A DNA stretch of 48,627 nt from Candidatus Tayloriibacteriota bacterium (GTDB taxonomy: Bacteria > Patescibacteriota > Minisyncoccia > Phycocordibacterales > SIBU01), in the NCBI GenBank assembly GCA_009695005.1, contig SIBU01000005.1:1-48627 (forward strand), written 5' to 3'. The notes under the pieces were generated by a model. The model saw only the letters and a program-made list of their open reading frames with translations. It did no database searches and was not told the DNA's origin. Shown here one piece after another: positions 2,226 through 27,298 of the stretch (the first letter of the stretch is position 1; every line of letters starts with the position of its first letter). A program made the translations under genes and the position numbers.

Positions 2226-3212
2226 TTATTCGCGAGGTTTAAGATGTTTTTTCACAATCGTTATAACTTGTTCAGGAGAAAGTTCGGAACTTTTTCCCTG
2301 AGGGCTGCCGATAATGTTAGGCGACCCGCCCCACCCTTCTTCGAGTTGTGCCAGCTCATTTTTTGCGGCAACAAGGTCGGCCCACGTGCCTTCATACTGA
2401 CATACTGTATATTTTCTGTATGCTTCGCCCGGACCTTGCTTGAACGCAGGATTAAAGGCCACAACGACAGGAGCCTGAGAATAGCCTAGAGATGTTCCTG
2501 CCCGATGCGAACTCTCCACGTATGCGATATTTCCACCGGCAAACATCTCTATTTTTATAGCACCCTTTTCAAGAGCCGCCGCCATGTCCGCTCGTTCTGC
2601 TTCTACCTTTTCTCGATAACCCGCAGGCTCGGTGCCAGTGGTTAGATACTCTTCCACGGATTTCATTCTGTCAGCCAAAGGCGCTTTGAAATCCATCACT
2701 CGTGCAGCAATAGCGGCAAGCGATTCAGTTTCAGACGCGCTTCCAGATTTTGGCCATGGCTGTTCTTTGCTTGGGAGATCAGTTTTGCCTGGCCACCCGC
2801 CGCGGGCGAATTTATCTGATGACGCAATATTCTGAATGCGAGCGATCATCTCCGACGTTACCTCGCCTCCGCTTGCGCGATGTTTCAAAAGGGCCATCGC
2901 TCCAAGGGCGTCGATGTCCGCTCTCACTGTAACCATAGAAGCTCCGCTTGGCGGTACTTCAAGAGTCTGGGCAACTTCAATAGCCGCAAGGTCTACATTT
3001 CCATCCGAGTGTTGAGGATCGATATTTCCGAGCGTACACTTTTCTGCATAGGCAGGAATGGTGACTTCAATACCCAGAACTCCATAGGGATTTTCAAAAA
3101 GCTTTTCGTTTGCAACCTTTGCCTCAGGGATCGACCGAGGGTCGATCAGTCCGAATTGATAATCTTTAAATTGCTCTTGTGGTTCAAAGCTTCTTGTGGG
3201 TTGTTTTTCCAT
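2226..3212 (-). CDS. Hypothetical protein, weakly DHH/DHHA1-like
   Basis: 328 residues. TACATT (3226-3221) lies 8 nt upstream of ATG 3212, consistent with a leaderless start. Two stretches are suggestive. VTVRADIDALGAMALL near residue 95 resembles the HxDxDALGA motif of DHH-family phosphoesterases, but with Arg in place of the metal-ligand His. WGGSPNIIGSPQGKSS near the C-terminus resembles the GG-x-AAG nucleic-acid-binding motif of DHHA1 domains. The usual DHH triad is not visible, so it may be a degenerate or unrelated protein. It lies 60 nt downstream of, and on the same strand as, the kinase-NTase-HD fusion gene. The family assignment is tentative; the gene itself is well supported. Confidence 0.7.
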   Translation of the reverse strand: MEKQPTRSFEPQEQFKDYQFGLIDPRSIPEAKVANEKLFENPYGVLGIEVTIPAYAEKCTLGNIDPQHSDGNVDLAAIEVAQTLEVPPSGASMVTVRADIDALGAMALLKHRASGGEVTSEMIARIQNIASSDKFARGGWPGKTDLPSKEQPWPKSGSASETESLAAIAARVMDFKAPLADRMKSVEEYLTTGTEPAGYREKVEAERADMAAALEKGAIKIEMFAGGNIAYVESSHRAGTSLGYSQAPVVVAFNPAFKQGPGEAYRKYTVCQYEGTWADLVAAKNELAQLEEGWGGSPNIIGSPQGKSSELSPEQVITIVKKHLKPRE

Positions 3213-3272: not shown

Positions 3273-5672
3273 TTAAAGTTTAGCCTTTATCAAGGCGCTT
3301 AATTTATCAGCCGCCGGAAGTAGCCAGCGCAATGAGGCGACCGAAGCGACATCCGCTTTCCAAATTTCCCGCACCATCGCCAAAGCCGATTCGTCGTCGA
3401 AGGCGGTTTTTGTTTTGAGTGCACGTACTTTCTCGCGAACCTTTTCCGGATCTAGAGCACCTTTATAGGCGGGCTGGGCGGTAACATCGAAATTAGGATC
3501 GCCTAGCTTCGCAGTTGCTTTTTCGGTTATGCCACGCGCCAATCTACCGAAGAGATCGTGGTTGCTAATAAGAAACTGCGCAAGTTCGGCCACATCATCG
3601 GGGACCCACGCGGGCTTATACTTCAGAAACATTTTCGCACCGGCTCCCTCATGAGCGCCTGGGGTATCCAGGTTAAGTAGTTTACCCACATCATGATATA
3701 GAAGAGCGACCCTTGATGCCAAACGAACCAACTCCTTTGTTTTTACATCCTCGATACCTTGCAACAAGGAGTCCGTGTCTAACTGCAACATGCTTTGTTT
3801 GAGGTGCATATAAAGCGGCCATCCTGCATGAGTCGCTTTCTGTTCCGCTTCAAAATTTTTTATTCTCTTATCCTCGGCGAACTTATTGAATGTCAGTACA
3901 CTCTCAATTTCCGGGTCTCTCCCTCCGACTGGTTGACGTGAGCGGGTTTGGTTAATGAGCCACTCTCGAAACTCTGCATCCGGCGCGGTCGCAGAAACAT
4001 AATGAAGCCAGTTCTCATAACCATCTGGAATTTGTTCAGGTTTGCGGATTCCAGCCCTCACTTCTTCAACAAGCGCGGGTAATTTTGATTTACGAGGAAC
4101 TGGCGGGGCGCTCTCGTTCCGTTCAGCAGATACATAAAAATTCACGATACCATCGGCAATACGACGCTCCTCCGGAGTCCAATCAACATAATTCCACCGC
4201 TCCTTTCCACCCTTCTCCATTTTGAGCACTTTCTGTTCTACTTTTGCCCACGATTCTTCAATTTGTGCGGGAGCATGCGTATAGCCGTACGCTTCCTTAA
4301 AAAGGACCGCGAGTTCTGGATCAAGCGTAAGGCCTGGATACTCATCAAGAAGTTTTTTTAAGGTTCCGATAGTTTTGCTCAGATGATACTCTCTATTTTC
4401 CGGCGAAAGCCGGTCAATGGCCACTTGATCCATTCGTACAATGCCGTTGCGAAGGTCGCTCTCCGCCTGAGGAGTCAGCTTGACTACAAGTTTACCTTTC
4501 TCAATTTTTGCCGCCCCTTGTCGGAACGTCAGCACACGGCTCTTGAGATCGTCCGTGAAGCTCAATTCGCCCTCGGTATTGTATTTGTCTCCGGCATGTT
4601 CCTGCCATGAATATACCGACCATCGCCGGTCAGGAAAATATTTTTCCAGATACACTTCCAGCTTTTTTGCCTGTTCCGGTGTATCCACTGTTACGTCAAT
4701 ATCAAGGGATTCCTGCGTCGGACCGTACTTTTTATTCCAAAAAGCGCGATAGATACTGCCGCTCGTAGCCCAAGCTTCTATACCGGTTTCTTGAGCGGCG
4801 TACTGAAGCTCTTGTAAAATATCTAACCGCCAAGGCAATTGTTCAAAGCCGAGACCTAGCCTTTCTCGTATGGCATCCGCTATCTCGTCGGGAGACTGCT
4901 GAGCATCTATGGTCAACGGTGCTTTATCCCGCCCGCGCAATTCTTTCACAACAGCCATGTCTTGTGCTAACGCGCGTTCTATTTTTCCAACGTATTTTTC
5001 ATGATCAGGTTCGCGCCCGCTTTTTGCATCTCTTTCCAATTGGCGAACATACGACTGCCGCACCTGATCTGTGCCAGAGACGCGAGCGCGCTCATCCTCC
5101 GATGTGAAAATCATAACCTCTCCTTCAACGGAAGGAACAAAGTCAAGAAATATAAATTCCATGTCTGCGCCTGCCTTCTGGGCTTCCATCTCAAGCAAAC
5201 GAAGTTGTTCAAGGCTACGTGGAAAACCATCGAGCACAACGCGGGGCGAGCTATCCTTGGCGATGGTTACGAGAAAATCCTCGTCCAAACCTTGTATCAG
5301 CGATCCCTTTCCGCCTTTTTCTATATTCTTATCACTTTTTTTCGCGAAAGCGCCCATGTGATAAGCTGGCGGTGCGCCAATGACAGAAGTCAGACGCTCA
5401 ATCTGGGTACTCTTACCCGCTCCCGGCATCCCCAAAAAAGATATCCATGTTTTTGAGGCAGGCGCTTTTTCAGTTTCCCGCTCATTTTTACGTTCCGGAC
5501 GATACAAAAGAAGACAGTTGCCTCTTCTGGCAGCTTCGCAATGCTCAAAACATGCGGGAACTGCCACGCGCGAAGTGGTCGGTGTTTTAGAAGGAGCTGT
5601 CTCCTGACTTTCCAATCCTAGTTTTTCTTTCTCAATTACTTCCAACGGAACTGATTTCGACACTCTTTCCAT
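3273..5672 (-). CDS. Adenylate-kinase-like / nucleotidyltransferase-like / HD-domain fusion protein
   Basis: 799 residues with three recognisable parts. An adenylate-kinase-like P-loop domain (about 75-275) has Walker A GMPGAGKST (81-89), the NMP-site motif LDGFPRS (147-153) and a LID-like region. A minimal nucleotidyltransferase-like domain (about 280-420) has TSGS (303-306) followed by the acidic pair DID (324-326), the signature of pol-beta-type NTases. A C-terminal HD-type domain has His near 614, YHDVGK near 658-663 and SNHD near 703. The N-terminus carries Cys 41, 45 and 53 (CxxxCx7C), a possible metal site. ATG 5672 is preceded by TAAAAT (5684-5679), 6 nt away, so the start looks leaderless. 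NTase plus HD recalls CCA-adding and nucleotide-signalling enzymes, but I know of no family with all three parts. The substrate is unknown. Confidence 0.85.
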   Translation of the reverse strand: MERVSKSVPLEVIEKEKLGLESQETAPSKTPTTSRVAVPACFEHCEAARRGNCLLLYRPERKNERETEKAPASKTWISFLGMPGAGKSTQIERLTSVIGAPPAYHMGAFAKKSDKNIEKGGKGSLIQGLDEDFLVTIAKDSSPRVVLDGFPRSLEQLRLLEMEAQKAGADMEFIFLDFVPSVEGEVMIFTSEDERARVSGTDQVRQSYVRQLERDAKSGREPDHEKYVGKIERALAQDMAVVKELRGRDKAPLTIDAQQSPDEIADAIRERLGLGFEQLPWRLDILQELQYAAQETGIEAWATSGSIYRAFWNKKYGPTQESLDIDVTVDTPEQAKKLEVYLEKYFPDRRWSVYSWQEHAGDKYNTEGELSFTDDLKSRVLTFRQGAAKIEKGKLVVKLTPQAESDLRNGIVRMDQVAIDRLSPENREYHLSKTIGTLKKLLDEYPGLTLDPELAVLFKEAYGYTHAPAQIEESWAKVEQKVLKMEKGGKERWNYVDWTPEERRIADGIVNFYVSAERNESAPPVPRKSKLPALVEEVRAGIRKPEQIPDGYENWLHYVSATAPDAEFREWLINQTRSRQPVGGRDPEIESVLTFNKFAEDKRIKNFEAEQKATHAGWPLYMHLKQSMLQLDTDSLLQGIEDVKTKELVRLASRVALLYHDVGKLLNLDTPGAHEGAGAKMFLKYKPAWVPDDVAELAQFLISNHDLFGRLARGITEKATAKLGDPNFDVTAQPAYKGALDPEKVREKVRALKTKTAFDDESALAMVREIWKADVASVASLRWLLPAADKLSALIKAKL

Positions 5673-6998: not shown

Positions 6999-8129
6999 CT
7001 ATTGATACTTTATATCACCATCTACAATAACCGCCGTATCAAAATATTTTTTAAGTAATTTAGGAGAATGAGTTATTCTAAAACCATCTATATTTGCCCT
7101 GTCCATGGCAACATTGTCCGGGAAATAATGTAAATATGAATCCATTCCAACACCGCAAAACATTTTAAAACCCTTTGAAACAAGATAAGCTCGTCTCGGA
7201 TCACTCGATTTGAATATATCCCCAAATGGTCCGACAAAGATATCCGTATCTCCAACCAAAGATTTAACTTCCCTATCCCACTGTTCGGTATCATTTTTCA
7301 AATTTTCTAAAGTAATCGAATCAGTCGAAAATGCTTTGCTGTGCGTATAACTATGACTGGCAAAACGCCAACCGGTAGCCTTTAGTTTATTAATCACAAC
7401 CTTTGCAAAAGCCAAGTCAAGAGGATATTTGGAAATGTCATCATAGTCCGTCCGATACCCAAGGATACCCTCAAAACCAGTAACGGCAATTACTCCTTTT
7501 GCACCTTTAAAAGAAAAATTCGGATGAGCCGACACGAAATCATCGAGAATTGGCACGACATCGCCATCTCTAGTTACTTGAGTAATACCCTCCGGAGTAA
7601 TAATTTGTGTAGAAACATTACCGTTTTTATCCAACACTAATTTGTCAGCAAAACCGTGACCTTTCATAGAAGAATAATAGGATTGATCGTCAAGTGAAAT
7701 GACCAAAGGTTTCTTATTGACAGGCAAATACAAAACCTTTCTTTCTACACTCCCATCATTACCGACATCGTACAGAGATTTTATATCTATCAATATATAA
7801 TTATTTTTATAGAGCTCTGGAAGAATTTTCTGAAAATCATCCCTAGTAATCATATAATCTTTATATACTTGATTGTTCGGACCCCCATCAAAAGCCAACT
7901 TAGGATAAACAATTAAACTATGAAAAAAAATGTGGCTGATTGCACCTTTATACAAAACATTCCCCAATTCATCCTTCTCCGGCAACATCACGTTCTGAAT
8001 ACTGGCAATCTGGTTTTTCAGATGCCAAGACACCAACTTATAATTGTTAGCGAACGAAAAAAATAAAACTGCCGACGTCACGACAGCCCCGAATACCGAA
8101 ATTAAATAAACTTTATTTTTCCTTTTCAC
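6999..8129 (-). CDS. Membrane-anchored polysaccharide deacetylase family protein
   Basis: Carbohydrate esterase 4 type fold, expected to remove acetyl groups from cell-wall or exopolysaccharide N-acetyl sugars outside the membrane. An N-terminal transmembrane anchor covers about residues 6-27. LDDQSYY near residue 145 supplies the catalytic and metal aspartates (motif 1), SHSYTHS near 257 the zinc-binding HxxxH (motif 2), and GPFGD later may stand in for the RxPxG motif. I chose GTG 8129 because it gives a clean KRKNK-plus-hydrophobic N-terminus and TATACT (8142-8137) ends 7 nt upstream; a TTG at 8171 in the same frame is the longer alternative. The N-terminal half, before the motifs, is larger than in minimal deacetylases. 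Confidence 0.85.
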   Translation of the reverse strand: MKRKNKVYLISVFGAVVTSAVLFFSFANNYKLVSWHLKNQIASIQNVMLPEKDELGNVLYKGAISHIFFHSLIVYPKLAFDGGPNNQVYKDYMITRDDFQKILPELYKNNYILIDIKSLYDVGNDGSVERKVLYLPVNKKPLVISLDDQSYYSSMKGHGFADKLVLDKNGNVSTQIITPEGITQVTRDGDVVPILDDFVSAHPNFSFKGAKGVIAVTGFEGILGYRTDYDDISKYPLDLAFAKVVINKLKATGWRFASHSYTHSKAFSTDSITLENLKNDTEQWDREVKSLVGDTDIFVGPFGDIFKSSDPRRAYLVSKGFKMFCGVGMDSYLHYFPDNVAMDRANIDGFRITHSPKLLKKYFDTAVIVDGDIKYQ

Positions 8130-8230
8130 AAAATGAAGTATATCAATATTGATATAAACTTCTAGGGACAACCAAGAAAATTTAGAAAATCATATGTTCA
8201 ATAAATATAAAATAGTGTATAGTAGCATTT

Positions 8231-8338
8231 ATGGCAAAAAGATTATCACAAGATGTAAAAAATAAGACATCGCGCTCAAGAAAGACCAAGAAACGACTGT
8301 CTACCAAGTACGCAATGTTGGCTTCAAGAAAGAAGTAG
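8231..8338 (+). CDS. Small very basic protein, 35 residues
   Basis: ATG 8231 to TAG 8338 encodes a 35-residue protein starting MAKRLSQDVKNK and ending AMLASRKK, with about 15 Lys/Arg. TATAGT (8218-8223) ends 7 nt before the ATG, the same leaderless spacing as at neighbouring genes. A weak hairpin (CAGAC/GTCTG) and a T-rich stretch follow near 8370-8400. Size and charge resemble small ribosomal proteins or RNA/DNA-binding peptides, and it lies just before a cold-shock gene. I do not recognise the family. It is too short for most gene finders. Confidence 0.6.
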   Translation: MAKRLSQDVKNKTSRSRKTKKRLSTKYAMLASRKK

Positions 8339-18486: not shown

Positions 18487-21240
18487 TTATTTCTGATACT
18501 TCTTCATTATCTCCCCCTCCACCTCACTTCGATCTCGGCCAAATTTAAGATATGAAAGTTCTTTCAAGTTCGCAATGATGTCCTTGTTACCTGGTGGTGG
18601 TGCCATAGTTTCAATATTGAAAGGCTTCACAGGACTACCGTTGACCAAAAGTTTGAGATAGGCGTTGCGGTTGTCCAAATTGACAATGTCATGCTCGGTA
18701 AACACCGGCTCAAGCTGCTTCGCCAAAAATTCTGCATCCTCTGAACCGACTCGGAACACCGCAAGAGAACCAACGTTACCGAACACAGCATCGCGAATCT
18801 TTTCTTCAAGTTGCTTAATAAATTGGTGAGCAACATGAAGAGAAAGTTTGTACTTGCGTGCCTCCGAAAGAATCGTTGAGATTGAGTCGGTGGTAATGTT
18901 CTGGAACTCATCGATATAGAGATAAAATGCCGGTAAGTCCTTACCATAGGAATCAACACGAGAAAGAGCGGCCATCAAAATTTTACCGACAAGAATAAGC
19001 CCAATCAAGTTTGCGTTTATATCACCAAGCCTTCCCTTAGCCAAATTGACCAGGAGAATTTTCTTACTGTCCATAATCTCGCGAAAATTGAAACTGGATT
19101 GCTCCTGAGCAATAATGGGCCGCATGATATCGTTTGCCAAAAAGTTATCGAACTTTGAAACGATGTACGGCACAATATTTGCAAGCGACGCTTCCCCACC
19201 TGCCTTATCCGCCACCTCACGCCAAAACTGAACAACAATAGGGTTTTTACATTTCGAAAGTTTCATTTCTCGAAATGTTTTGTTGGCTAGCACTCTTGAA
19301 ACATCTAAAAGTGTATTTCCCGTAGTAGGATCTTCGATAGTCAAAAGAACCGCATTTCTAAAATACTGCTCAAACATCGGACCACCTGCGGTTTTCATAT
19401 CAAACAACTTATTGAAAATCGAAAGTAACTCATTTACCACAAACGTCTTCTGCTCTGGGAATCGGACGTCGTATTCGAGCATATTGAGCGCCATAGGGCG
19501 CGCGGTATAAGATGGATCAAAATAAATCAAATCCTCATATCTTTCAGGAGGGATGGAGGCCAAGATATCTTGAATGTCGGCTCCGTGCGGATCAATCATG
19601 CACACACCTTCACCGTTTTGAATATCCTGAACAATCATATTTTTAAGAAGTGTAGTCTTACCGGTTCCGGTCTGACCAATGACATAAAAGTGTCGAAGAC
19701 GATCTTCTTTATTCATAAACACCTTTGTCTCGGTTGTGCGATTACGATTTACGCCAAGAAGAACACCTTGCTGAGGTAAATCAATCGGCGCGGCTGCGCT
19801 TCCGGCCTTGGCACTTTTAAGTTGTGGGGAAGATTGAATACGACTAGATGGAAAATGCATCATGGTGGTTACTTCTTTTATATTCAAAGGTATAGCTTCA
19901 TCTTCTTCAAAAATTCTAAAAGAGTAATCGTGAAGCAAACGCTTAAATTTTCTACCCCCAAAAAATCTCTCGAATTTCAATTTATTGCCATGGGTATTCT
20001 CAAATTGGTTAAAAGCCGCCTCCAGATCACCCAAAATGGCCAGAGCAGAAGATTTGTCTTCTGCCGACGCAATCACCCTAATTGACACCAAAAGCATCGG
20101 GCTACTCACTTTATTTTTCACTTGCTCAATCGCCACATCATCTGTTTTTGAAGGCTCAGGATCATCTTTTTTCTTTTTAGTATCGGAATGACGCCCAGAC
20201 AAGGCGTCTTTAAAACCCTTTGCGAATTCTCCAAAAAAAGTCATTCGAATATCAGTTGCCCTCCTGACTGATACACCCTTCTGCAACTTCTTTAAAGCTT
20301 CCTGGTATTTTTCATGATACTTTTCCGGCGCAGTCCTGAAAACAAACTGGACCGCTGCACCTTGTCCATTTTTTTTTATTTTAGAAAAACTGTTAAGTAA
20401 AACATTTAACGGGTCGATTTCAAACTCATCGTAAACCTTAATCGGAAAAATACAGTTACGCGACGATTCGGCAAGAGAACCGACAGACACGCCAGTCTCA
20501 TTAAAAACATTGTAATCGTTTTTTGCCTCGCGGATTTTTGCATTATGAAAAATCGACAGTATTTGTTTTTCAAACAGTGGCCGTTTGGAATTCGGAACAG
20601 AAGCGTAAAAAATAAACTCCTCGCTACCGTTACTGTTGGCAATCTCAATTGAAAAAGATTGCTCGCTTGTGTCGGACTCGTGGGAAATACTGAGCATGCC
20701 TGCATAAAACTGTTCCATACCAGAAATAAGTTTTTTAAGCTCCTTCTCACCTTCCTCTTTGTTAATTTCGGGCAGAGTAATCTCATAAAGAGTGCTATTT
20801 AGAGCTTTGCCGAGCAGGTTTTTTTCATTTAGTCCTTTAACGGCAAAACCCGCCTTTATGTACTGAACCAAAAAACGATGAAAATCGTCCTCAAGATGGA
20901 AATCATTGATTTTTTGAATGATACTTAAGGTATTTTTTATCCCCTTTTGCTCGAGGATGCCAATCAGCTCCTCGATTTTTTTATCATGCGTTTCCGGAGA
21001 CAGGTCCAAAACAATAGCGTCCTGATGAAAATGTCCCATTTCAAGACTTGGAGAAATTACCTCCTTGGCAGGTATTGCAGAATACTCCTTAATAACTTCT
21101 TTTACTGCCTTGTCCTGACTGATTTCGTTACCTCTGGAAATCGCTTCCGCCTGATGACGGGAAACTTCTTGACGCAAAAAATTCAGCTCTTCTTCGGGTG
21201 ACGAAAAACTTTTTTTCTCTCGGCTAAATTGTTGCTCCAT
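18487..21240 (-). CDS. VirD4/TraG/HerA-like DNA-translocase ATPase
   Basis: 917 residues. The N-terminal half (1-500) is poorly conserved. The ATPase domain has Walker A GQTGTGKTTLL (about 519-529), IDPHGADI after it, Walker B LYIDEFQN (about 770-777) and the sensor-like VAHQFIKQL. The segment from IDPHGAD to FRVGSEDAEFLAKQLEP is characteristic of type IV secretion coupling-protein-like (TraG/VirD4, TraD) ATPases that pump DNA or protein across membranes. No relaxase or VirB4/VirB6 partner is visible nearby. TATAAT (21252-21247) ends 6 nt before ATG 21240, suggesting a leaderless transcript that continues into the 17835 gene. Confidence 0.85.
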   Translation of the reverse strand: MEQQFSREKKSFSSPEEELNFLRQEVSRHQAEAISRGNEISQDKAVKEVIKEYSAIPAKEVISPSLEMGHFHQDAIVLDLSPETHDKKIEELIGILEQKGIKNTLSIIQKINDFHLEDDFHRFLVQYIKAGFAVKGLNEKNLLGKALNSTLYEITLPEINKEEGEKELKKLISGMEQFYAGMLSISHESDTSEQSFSIEIANSNGSEEFIFYASVPNSKRPLFEKQILSIFHNAKIREAKNDYNVFNETGVSVGSLAESSRNCIFPIKVYDEFEIDPLNVLLNSFSKIKKNGQGAAVQFVFRTAPEKYHEKYQEALKKLQKGVSVRRATDIRMTFFGEFAKGFKDALSGRHSDTKKKKDDPEPSKTDDVAIEQVKNKVSSPMLLVSIRVIASAEDKSSALAILGDLEAAFNQFENTHGNKLKFERFFGGRKFKRLLHDYSFRIFEEDEAIPLNIKEVTTMMHFPSSRIQSSPQLKSAKAGSAAAPIDLPQQGVLLGVNRNRTTETKVFMNKEDRLRHFYVIGQTGTGKTTLLKNMIVQDIQNGEGVCMIDPHGADIQDILASIPPERYEDLIYFDPSYTARPMALNMLEYDVRFPEQKTFVVNELLSIFNKLFDMKTAGGPMFEQYFRNAVLLTIEDPTTGNTLLDVSRVLANKTFREMKLSKCKNPIVVQFWREVADKAGGEASLANIVPYIVSKFDNFLANDIMRPIIAQEQSSFNFREIMDSKKILLVNLAKGRLGDINANLIGLILVGKILMAALSRVDSYGKDLPAFYLYIDEFQNITTDSISTILSEARKYKLSLHVAHQFIKQLEEKIRDAVFGNVGSLAVFRVGSEDAEFLAKQLEPVFTEHDIVNLDNRNAYLKLLVNGSPVKPFNIETMAPPPGNKDIIANLKELSYLKFGRDRSEVEGEIMKKYQK

Positions 21241-25942: not shown

Positions 25943-26632
25943 TTATCCTTTTATCACTGTTCCTTTAAACGGCGTACCTTCAATATAGTTTTTTAAATTA
26001 TCTATAGGTTTACCGTTCATCAAAGCAACTTCCAACCCAAGTTCTTGCGCTAATTTTGCAGCTATAGGATCAAACGGGGCATTAAGTCCCGGCTCCCATT
26101 TTTCCGGAATTATCTTTCTAAAATCACTCCATGATATTTTTTCAATTTTTTTGGCATCGGGATTATTTTTAGGATCCTTGTCATAAACGAAATCAATATT
26201 GGACAAATTTATAACCTGTTTAGCCCCAACTTCTTTGGCAAACAATACCGCAACATAATCCGTACTATGCCCAGGAGCTTGTGCACCGCCAACTACCAAT
26301 GGTTTAGTAGTCTTGGAAATATCCTTTGGATCAGTTACCACTTCTGGATGCGCAAGAGAGCCGAAAATAATACGGATAAACTCGGCATTCAAACGCAAGG
26401 AATAAATTCCCACCCAATCTAACTCGTCTGATGAAAGATTGGCAATTTCCTTACCTGCTGATTGGTAACGGCGCGCTGTCCTACCTCCTCCCGCAACCAA
26501 AATAAACTCTTTACCTTCCTTTATTTTAGATTCTAAAAAAACTTTTAAACAGGAAACAAAGTTAACATCCACAACGTCTGGAACAATCAGAGACCCACCA
26601 AGAGATATGACAATTTTTTGGTTACTAGCCAT
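25943..26632 (-). CDS. pyrH: UMP kinase, archaeal-type
   Basis: 229 residues of the amino-acid-kinase fold; phosphorylates UMP to UDP. It starts KIVISLGGSLIVP and has AGGGRTARRY, a GHSTD motif, NIDFVYDKDPKNNPDAKKI and DPIAAKLA. These match the archaeal UMP kinase pattern (GGSVLVP, GHTTD, DPLAAK) better than the E. coli-type hexameric enzyme regulated by GTP. The start overlaps the adk-like stop by 8 nt, so two nucleotide kinases are coupled between secY and map. Confidence 0.85.
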   Translation of the reverse strand: MASNQKIVISLGGSLIVPDVVDVNFVSCLKVFLESKIKEGKEFILVAGGGRTARRYQSAGKEIANLSSDELDWVGIYSLRLNAEFIRIIFGSLAHPEVVTDPKDISKTTKPLVVGGAQAPGHSTDYVAVLFAKEVGAKQVINLSNIDFVYDKDPKNNPDAKKIEKISWSDFRKIIPEKWEPGLNAPFDPIAAKLAQELGLEVALMNGKPIDNLKNYIEGTPFKGTVIKG

Positions 26633-27200
26633 TGTGTTCTGAAAGTTTTTTCAAAACTTCCTCGTGTATTTTTTCGGGAGTGCTCATTCCATCGATACCG
26701 ATCACCTTATTTATACTTTTAAAGAAATTGATGGCCTGTTCAGTGTAAGTACGATATTCATTCAAACGAACTTTTATTTTAGCTTCGTCATTGCTATCCA
26801 TTCGTCCGCGCAAAAGTTGACGCTTTATAACTTCTTCATCACTTACTACCAATTCGAAAACTATGTAATCGCGTTCAAGCCATTTGGCCACCTCATCAAA
26901 AAGTCTCGCCTCCGGCTCCTTCCTACCAATCCCCTCGCACACCAACCCCTTTGAAGGTTCTAGATTTAAAAATGCATTCTCAAAAAGATAAGATGCATAC
27001 CAATGAGGCATAAGAATTCCCTGATCATATTCACTGCGCACCCGCTCACCTAATGCATCTTTTCTGGCACGAAGTTTTCGAAATTCATCACCTGTGGAAA
27101 AAACCTCGAATCCAAGCTTTTTCGACAAAAGTTCGCTCTGTGTGCCCTTGCCCGAACCAGTCTTCCCCATCATTAAAATAGTGTTGACATTTGATTTCAT
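26625..27200 (-). CDS. adk: Adenylate-kinase-like nucleoside monophosphate kinase, divergent
   Basis: 191 residues. P-loop GKTGSGKGTQ (about 12-21), then FSTGDEFRKL, which corresponds to the NMP-binding STGDMLR motif. The usual DGFPR motif is replaced by CEGIGRKEPEA, and the LID is reduced to RGRMDSNDEAKIKVRLNEY, as in short-form kinases without a zinc lid. Position after secY is the classical adk position, so it probably supplies AMP kinase activity, but the altered NMP-site motif makes another NMP or dNMP substrate possible. TATAAA (27212-27207) ends 6 nt before ATG 27200. Confidence 0.8.
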   Translation of the reverse strand: MKSNVNTILMMGKTGSGKGTQSELLSKKLGFEVFSTGDEFRKLRARKDALGERVRSEYDQGILMPHWYASYLFENAFLNLEPSKGLVCEGIGRKEPEARLFDEVAKWLERDYIVFELVVSDEEVIKRQLLRGRMDSNDEAKIKVRLNEYRTYTEQAINFFKSINKVIGIDGMSTPEKIHEEVLKKLSEHNG

Positions 27201-27298
27201 GACAAATTTATAGCACAAATACTTATCTTTTACTAATAGTAAAAAACATCCGGAATAATTATTTTCTGGATGTTCTCTATTCCAAACCCTAAACTCTT

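Follow-up and report, generated by a model that had tools for sequence, protein, structure and literature searches.

One reading frame of a Tayloriibacteriota bacterium joins kinase-like, nucleotidyltransferase-like and HD phosphohydrolase-like domains

A long reading frame on contig SIBU01000005.1 of Candidatus Tayloriibacteriota bacterium (assembly GCA_009695005.1) carries motifs of three classes of nucleotide-handling enzymes. Do these motifs belong to one protein, to which families are its domains related, and which reactions could such a protein combine? We analysed the gene, P0001, within a stretch of 48,627 nucleotides of this contig, hereafter the window. P0001 is a single uninterrupted ATG frame, in agreement with a sequence-only reading that had described 799 residues without a frameshift. 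Its GC content by codon position (0.60/0.40/0.45) follows a coding-like pattern; along the segments of the protein, positions 1 and 2 remain similar throughout and position 3 ranges from 0.36 to 0.50. The kinase-like, nucleotidyltransferase and HD domains are truly joined in one protein, whose layout is given in Table 1.

Table 1. Layout of P0001 and its downstream neighbour, in window coordinates
Feature	Position	Strand	Remarks
P0001, three-domain protein, 799 aa	3273..5672	(-)	Intact ORF
CxxxCx7C motif, residues 41-53	5514..5552	(-)	Motif read from sequence
P-loop NMP-kinase-like domain, residues 74-272	4857..5453	(-)	Walker A 81-89, DGFPR 148-152
Pol-beta-type nucleotidyltransferase, NTP_transf_6-like, residues 273-425	4398..4856	(-)	TSGS 303-306, DID 324-326
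Helical neck and linker, residues 426-589	3906..4397	(-)	Long helix 424-444 (AF2 model)
HD phosphohydrolase-like domain, residues 590-799	3276..3905	(-)	H623, H660-D661, H674, H705, D774
P0002, 328-aa downstream gene	2226..3212	(-)	Possibly DHH/DHHA1-like

The same reading had attributed Walker A and DGFPR to a kinase, TSGS and DID to a nucleotidyltransferase, and HDVGK with flanking histidines to an HD domain, and the profile comparisons below agree with all three attributions. P0001 keeps the catalytic motifs, namely the P-loop (GMPGAGKST, 81-89), the DxD pair (DID) and the H/HD/H/H/D set (H623, HD660-661, H674, H705 and D774), together with DGFPR and the sequence TSGSIYR (303-309). The Pfam scores of all its domains lie below the gathering cut-offs, so that they are to be regarded as distant relatives and not as members of the families. 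All three domains fall into known superfamilies, and the assignments are very probably correct, that of the middle domain being the least certain. The linker matched no family in the Pfam scan. The N-terminal cysteine motif (C41, C45 and C53) had also been proposed as a metal site; its residues matched no Pfam family and the proposal found no support.

The N-terminal domain is related to nucleoside monophosphate kinases. The NCBIfam adk model matched P0001 over residues 79-270 with E=1.1e-7, Pfam gave AAA_17 at 7e-5 and ADK at 4e-4, and adenylate kinases of the PDB matched the region with E values from 1e-5. With a small profile built from two CPR P-loop kinase proteins, P0001 ranked second in its own proteome, behind the true Adk only. 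It carries both motifs of the adenylate kinase signature, Walker A and DGFPR/DGYPR, and its weak profile match extends along the full length of the adenylate/UMP-CMP kinase family, while its scores stay below the curated values of this family (20.9 against 26.8 bits for PF00406, 31.7 against 168 for TIGR01351). The alignment further shows that the AMP-binding motif TGDxxR is absent, HMGAFAKK standing in its place, and that the NMP-binding region is shortened by a deletion. The domain is therefore best described as NMP-kinase-like and is not a safe adenylate kinase. The sequence-only reading had suggested that it makes NDP or NTP: the Walker A and DGFPR motifs behind this suggestion are present, but the suggestion is weakened by the loss of TGDxxR and of part of the NMP-binding region, and by a separate Adk gene in the same genome (window 26625-27218). 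The latter, near the ribosomal operon, is only 32-33% identical to the genes found at the same place in genus mates, compared with 55-80% for most of its neighbours; from these sequences, an in-place replacement or fast divergence of this Adk is possible.

For the middle domain, the sole Pfam match was NTP_transf_6 (PF06042, formerly DUF925), with E=0.057 and 13.7 bits against a gathering score of 25. When the domain was aligned by hhalign to a PF06042 profile made of three clear CPR family members, a score of 35.7 over 129 columns was obtained, compared with a maximum of 24.3 in 150 shuffles. P0001 came first among 580 proteins of its own proteome against this profile, the runner-up scoring 28.4 over just 18 columns. 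The alignment includes the G(S)xxxR...W...DxD and W-S-V elements, with D324 and D326 as the metal-binding pair. An AlphaFold2 single-sequence model of the domain (pLDDT 54) places the elements in the expected order: helix, GS turn, helix, DxD strand, helix, strand and long neck helix. Submitted to Foldseek, this low-confidence model matched CCA-adding enzymes (E=9e-5, probability 1.0), and its top 12 PDB matches are CCA-adding or tRNA-processing enzymes, including 3h39 and 2la3; the latter, which represents PF06042, has the description of a CCA-adding head domain. A published comparison of HMMs found PF06042/DUF925 to be related to this head and its metal-binding Asp residues to be conserved (PMC3228556). 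The motifs RRDFTxN and EDxxR of CCA-adding enzymes are absent from the sequence and alignment of P0001, and neither PF01743 nor a profile of CPR CCA-adding enzymes matched its nucleotidyltransferase. Assignment as a true CCA enzyme was rejected, as the hhalign score fell from 23.1 to 18.9 with a fuller profile and P0001 ranked 108th in its own proteome. These data support a PF06042-like nucleotidyltransferase that is not CCA-adding. Its fusion to two more domains sets it apart from the three clear CPR members of PF06042, each of which has about 200 aa and stands alone.

The C-terminal domain matched Pfam HD (PF01966) with E=0.011 and 16.4 bits against a curated score of 22. Alignment to an RNase Y profile by hhalign gave a probability of 92 and E=6e-7, and in the own proteome RNase Y alone outscores P0001. 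The metal ligands H...HD...D are in place, H623 and D774 being assigned by eye, and a GxH motif follows HDxGK as in the HD domain of RNase Y. Unlike RNase Y, P0001 has an insertion of about 50 residues ahead of D774, and no KH domain or coiled coil was recognised in it. The comparisons support an RNase Y/HDIG-like domain and a predicted phosphohydrolase. An AlphaFold2 single-sequence model of residues 560-799 reached a pLDDT of 45 and was uninformative, its Foldseek matches being meaningless.

The architecture appears to be confined to this genome among those searched. About 1,700 genomes (overlapping samples), three genus mates included, yielded no relative of P0001: the full protein had none in 98 relatives, 384 genomes of the class and 397 of the order (again overlapping), and residues 273-799 had none in 380 genomes of the phylum. 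Phages, plasmids, genome contigs and viral contigs gave none either, the two contig collections being covered by two pattern scans each, which detect close relatives only; for the second pair of scans, the query alignment consisted of the window sequence and one conservatively altered copy, which steered the patterns to the motifs. A search for Adk fusions in 188 genomes of the class revealed no comparable long frame among the matches listed. Other matches were dismissed. Those to the HD region on L063 and L064 proved to be other genes, and an 812-aa frame of another CPR genome (G234, L003:9459-11897) joins an Adk-like segment to GatB and is no relative; this frame ends at the contig end and is either a fusion or a frame artefact. 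Literature searches for the trio found nothing, and the sequence-only reading had likewise pointed to no named family of this kind. The trio is new in that the searches met it neither in a named family nor in the genomes covered.

What might such a protein do? Its nucleotidyltransferase-then-HD order is that of HD-bearing CCA-adding enzymes, in which a phosphatase-active HDIG domain follows the nucleotidyltransferase and removes 2',3'-cyclic phosphates (PMC10673834), and of GlnD, which adds and removes UMP with such a pair (PMC3480911). In RelA/SpoT, by contrast, the HD domain lies N-terminal to the synthetase. We tentatively propose that P0001 is a bifunctional Pol-beta nucleotidyltransferase and HD phosphohydrolase carrying an N-terminal fusion to a P-loop NMP-kinase-like domain. 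The nucleotidyltransferase would add NMP from NTP onto an acceptor that is also the target of the HD domain, which would cleave a phosphodiester or phosphate on it. As acceptor, our first guess is an RNA 3' end, a protein or small molecule coming next; RNA ends are preferred since the folds closest to those of P0001, the CCA head and the HD domains of RNase Y and Cca, act on RNA. The kinase-like domain would bind ATP, and might phosphorylate a nucleotide or RNA-end substrate or sense nucleotides. We infer that all three domains may be active on one common substrate and that this substrate may be RNA. Such an add-and-cleave enzyme would be the most economical reading, one we nevertheless hold with considerable doubt: the lesions of the kinase domain and the lack of CCA-enzyme motifs and of a CCA-profile match count against it, as does the fact that P0001 is represented by one sequence in all genomes searched. 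Its fullest form, a one-chain enzyme whose kinase-like domain prepares the nucleotide or end, whose NTP_transf_6-type nucleotidyltransferase attaches it and whose HD domain removes it or heals the end, is unlikely. The sequence-only reading had suggested a self-contained cycle of nucleotide transfer and removal, which is a possible function of P0001. If true, the prepare-attach-remove chain would represent a writer/eraser architecture of a new kind and provide a first functional context for the poorly characterised PF06042-type nucleotidyltransferases, whose structure is solved and to which the literature searched assigns no reaction. The fusion to a kinase-like domain and an HD phosphoesterase hints at reactions to which they may couple.

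The losses in the NMP-binding part of the kinase-like domain, together with Pfam scores that nowhere reach gathering, would also fit a degenerate or regulatory fusion in which at least one domain, the kinase-like one first, is an inactive nucleotide sensor and only the HD domain or the nucleotidyltransferase is catalytic. The retention of the P-loop, DGFPR, DxD and every HD ligand argues against such decay, which we consider rather improbable. In a GlnD-like modifier, the nucleotidyltransferase would nucleotidylate a partner protein, the HD domain would strip the nucleotide and the kinase-like domain would sense the nucleotide level. The domain assignments and their order would allow this add-and-remove logic, but GlnD has two C-terminal ACT domains, of which a Pfam scan of P0001 to E=10 found none, and it has no added kinase-like domain; moreover, the nucleotidyltransferase of P0001 is of another subfamily, with PF06042 as its closest relative, which makes a GlnD-like role quite unlikely. 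A small-molecule enzyme, in which nucleotidyl transfer would activate a metabolite and the by-product would be hydrolysed, as in antibiotic or cofactor nucleotidylation, is more doubtful still. PF06042 and Pol-beta nucleotidyltransferases do include families with small-molecule or unassigned specificity (PMC3228556 and general background on the superfamily), but the first 12 kb of the window showed no recognisable biosynthetic neighbours.

P0001 was also considered as a stand-in for the CCA-adding enzyme, since the own Cca seemed to be missing and most tRNA genes of the genome do not encode CCA. PF01743 is absent from the own assembly (89% complete) while present in 54 of the 60 genomes searched, and the Cca of a genus mate used as query matches nothing there. 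The likeness to enzymes such as E. coli Cca and M. tuberculosis Rv3907c covers the nucleotidyltransferase head, the helical neck, an HDIG-like HD domain and the Foldseek matches of the modelled middle domain; beyond its missing CCA signatures, P0001 differs by its extra kinase-like domain and longer linker. Synteny led us to reject this role, which is extremely improbable. Both genus mates carry cca between an RNase Y/HU/TrmB-like block and the NYN/pnp genes. These two flanks are on separate contigs of the own genome, the left one close to the end of C8 and the right one at base 126 of C4, and it is precisely at this junction that the block known from the genus mates (mutY, YraN-like, cca, xth and xerC) is lacking. 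The junction is a probable assembly gap, judging from this gene order; a seemingly absent cca gene can thus be a mere gap.

P0001 lies 60 nt upstream of the co-directional P0002. The C-terminal 40 residues of P0002 match a CPR protein with DHH and DxD motifs (L062:5966-6907; hhalign 45, shuffle maximum 20), both sharing the segment GWGGxxxIGxxP...LSPE(E/Q)V. On the basis of this common segment, P0002 may be a DHH-type phosphoesterase. The genome of the matched protein (G018) has two DHH-like genes of about 320 aa close together (L062:5966-6910 and 7334-8308); in these, DHH comes before DxD(G), whereas the two motifs usually occur the other way round.

By its sequence context, the P0001 gene sits in a GC-rich, lineage-specific stretch near the tmRNA gene. 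Three genes, at 568-2220, 2226-3212 and 3273-5672, stand out by their high GC content (94th to 98th percentile), and nothing in the syntenic region of genus mate G001 corresponds to the first 11 kb of the window, the contig of G003 ending early. The first of these genes is a 550-aa orphan with 'LPALRKVGG'-like segments repeated at even spacing, of LRR or beta-helix type. The 3' end of the tmRNA is repeated exactly as a 15 bp direct repeat at 375-389 and 572-586 (TCGCGCCATCTCCAC); only the second copy runs on into CCA, and the assembly contains no further copy. The direct repeat may be the remnant of an integration event at ssrA. A long inverted repeat (CATCTCCACAAAATTTT...AAAATTTTGTGGAGATG) spans the tmRNA 3' end and terminator at 380-444. 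Further along the window, at 18487-21240, a TraG/VirD4-like T4SS ATPase lies near ribosomal-protein genes and is 77-80% identical in genus mates.
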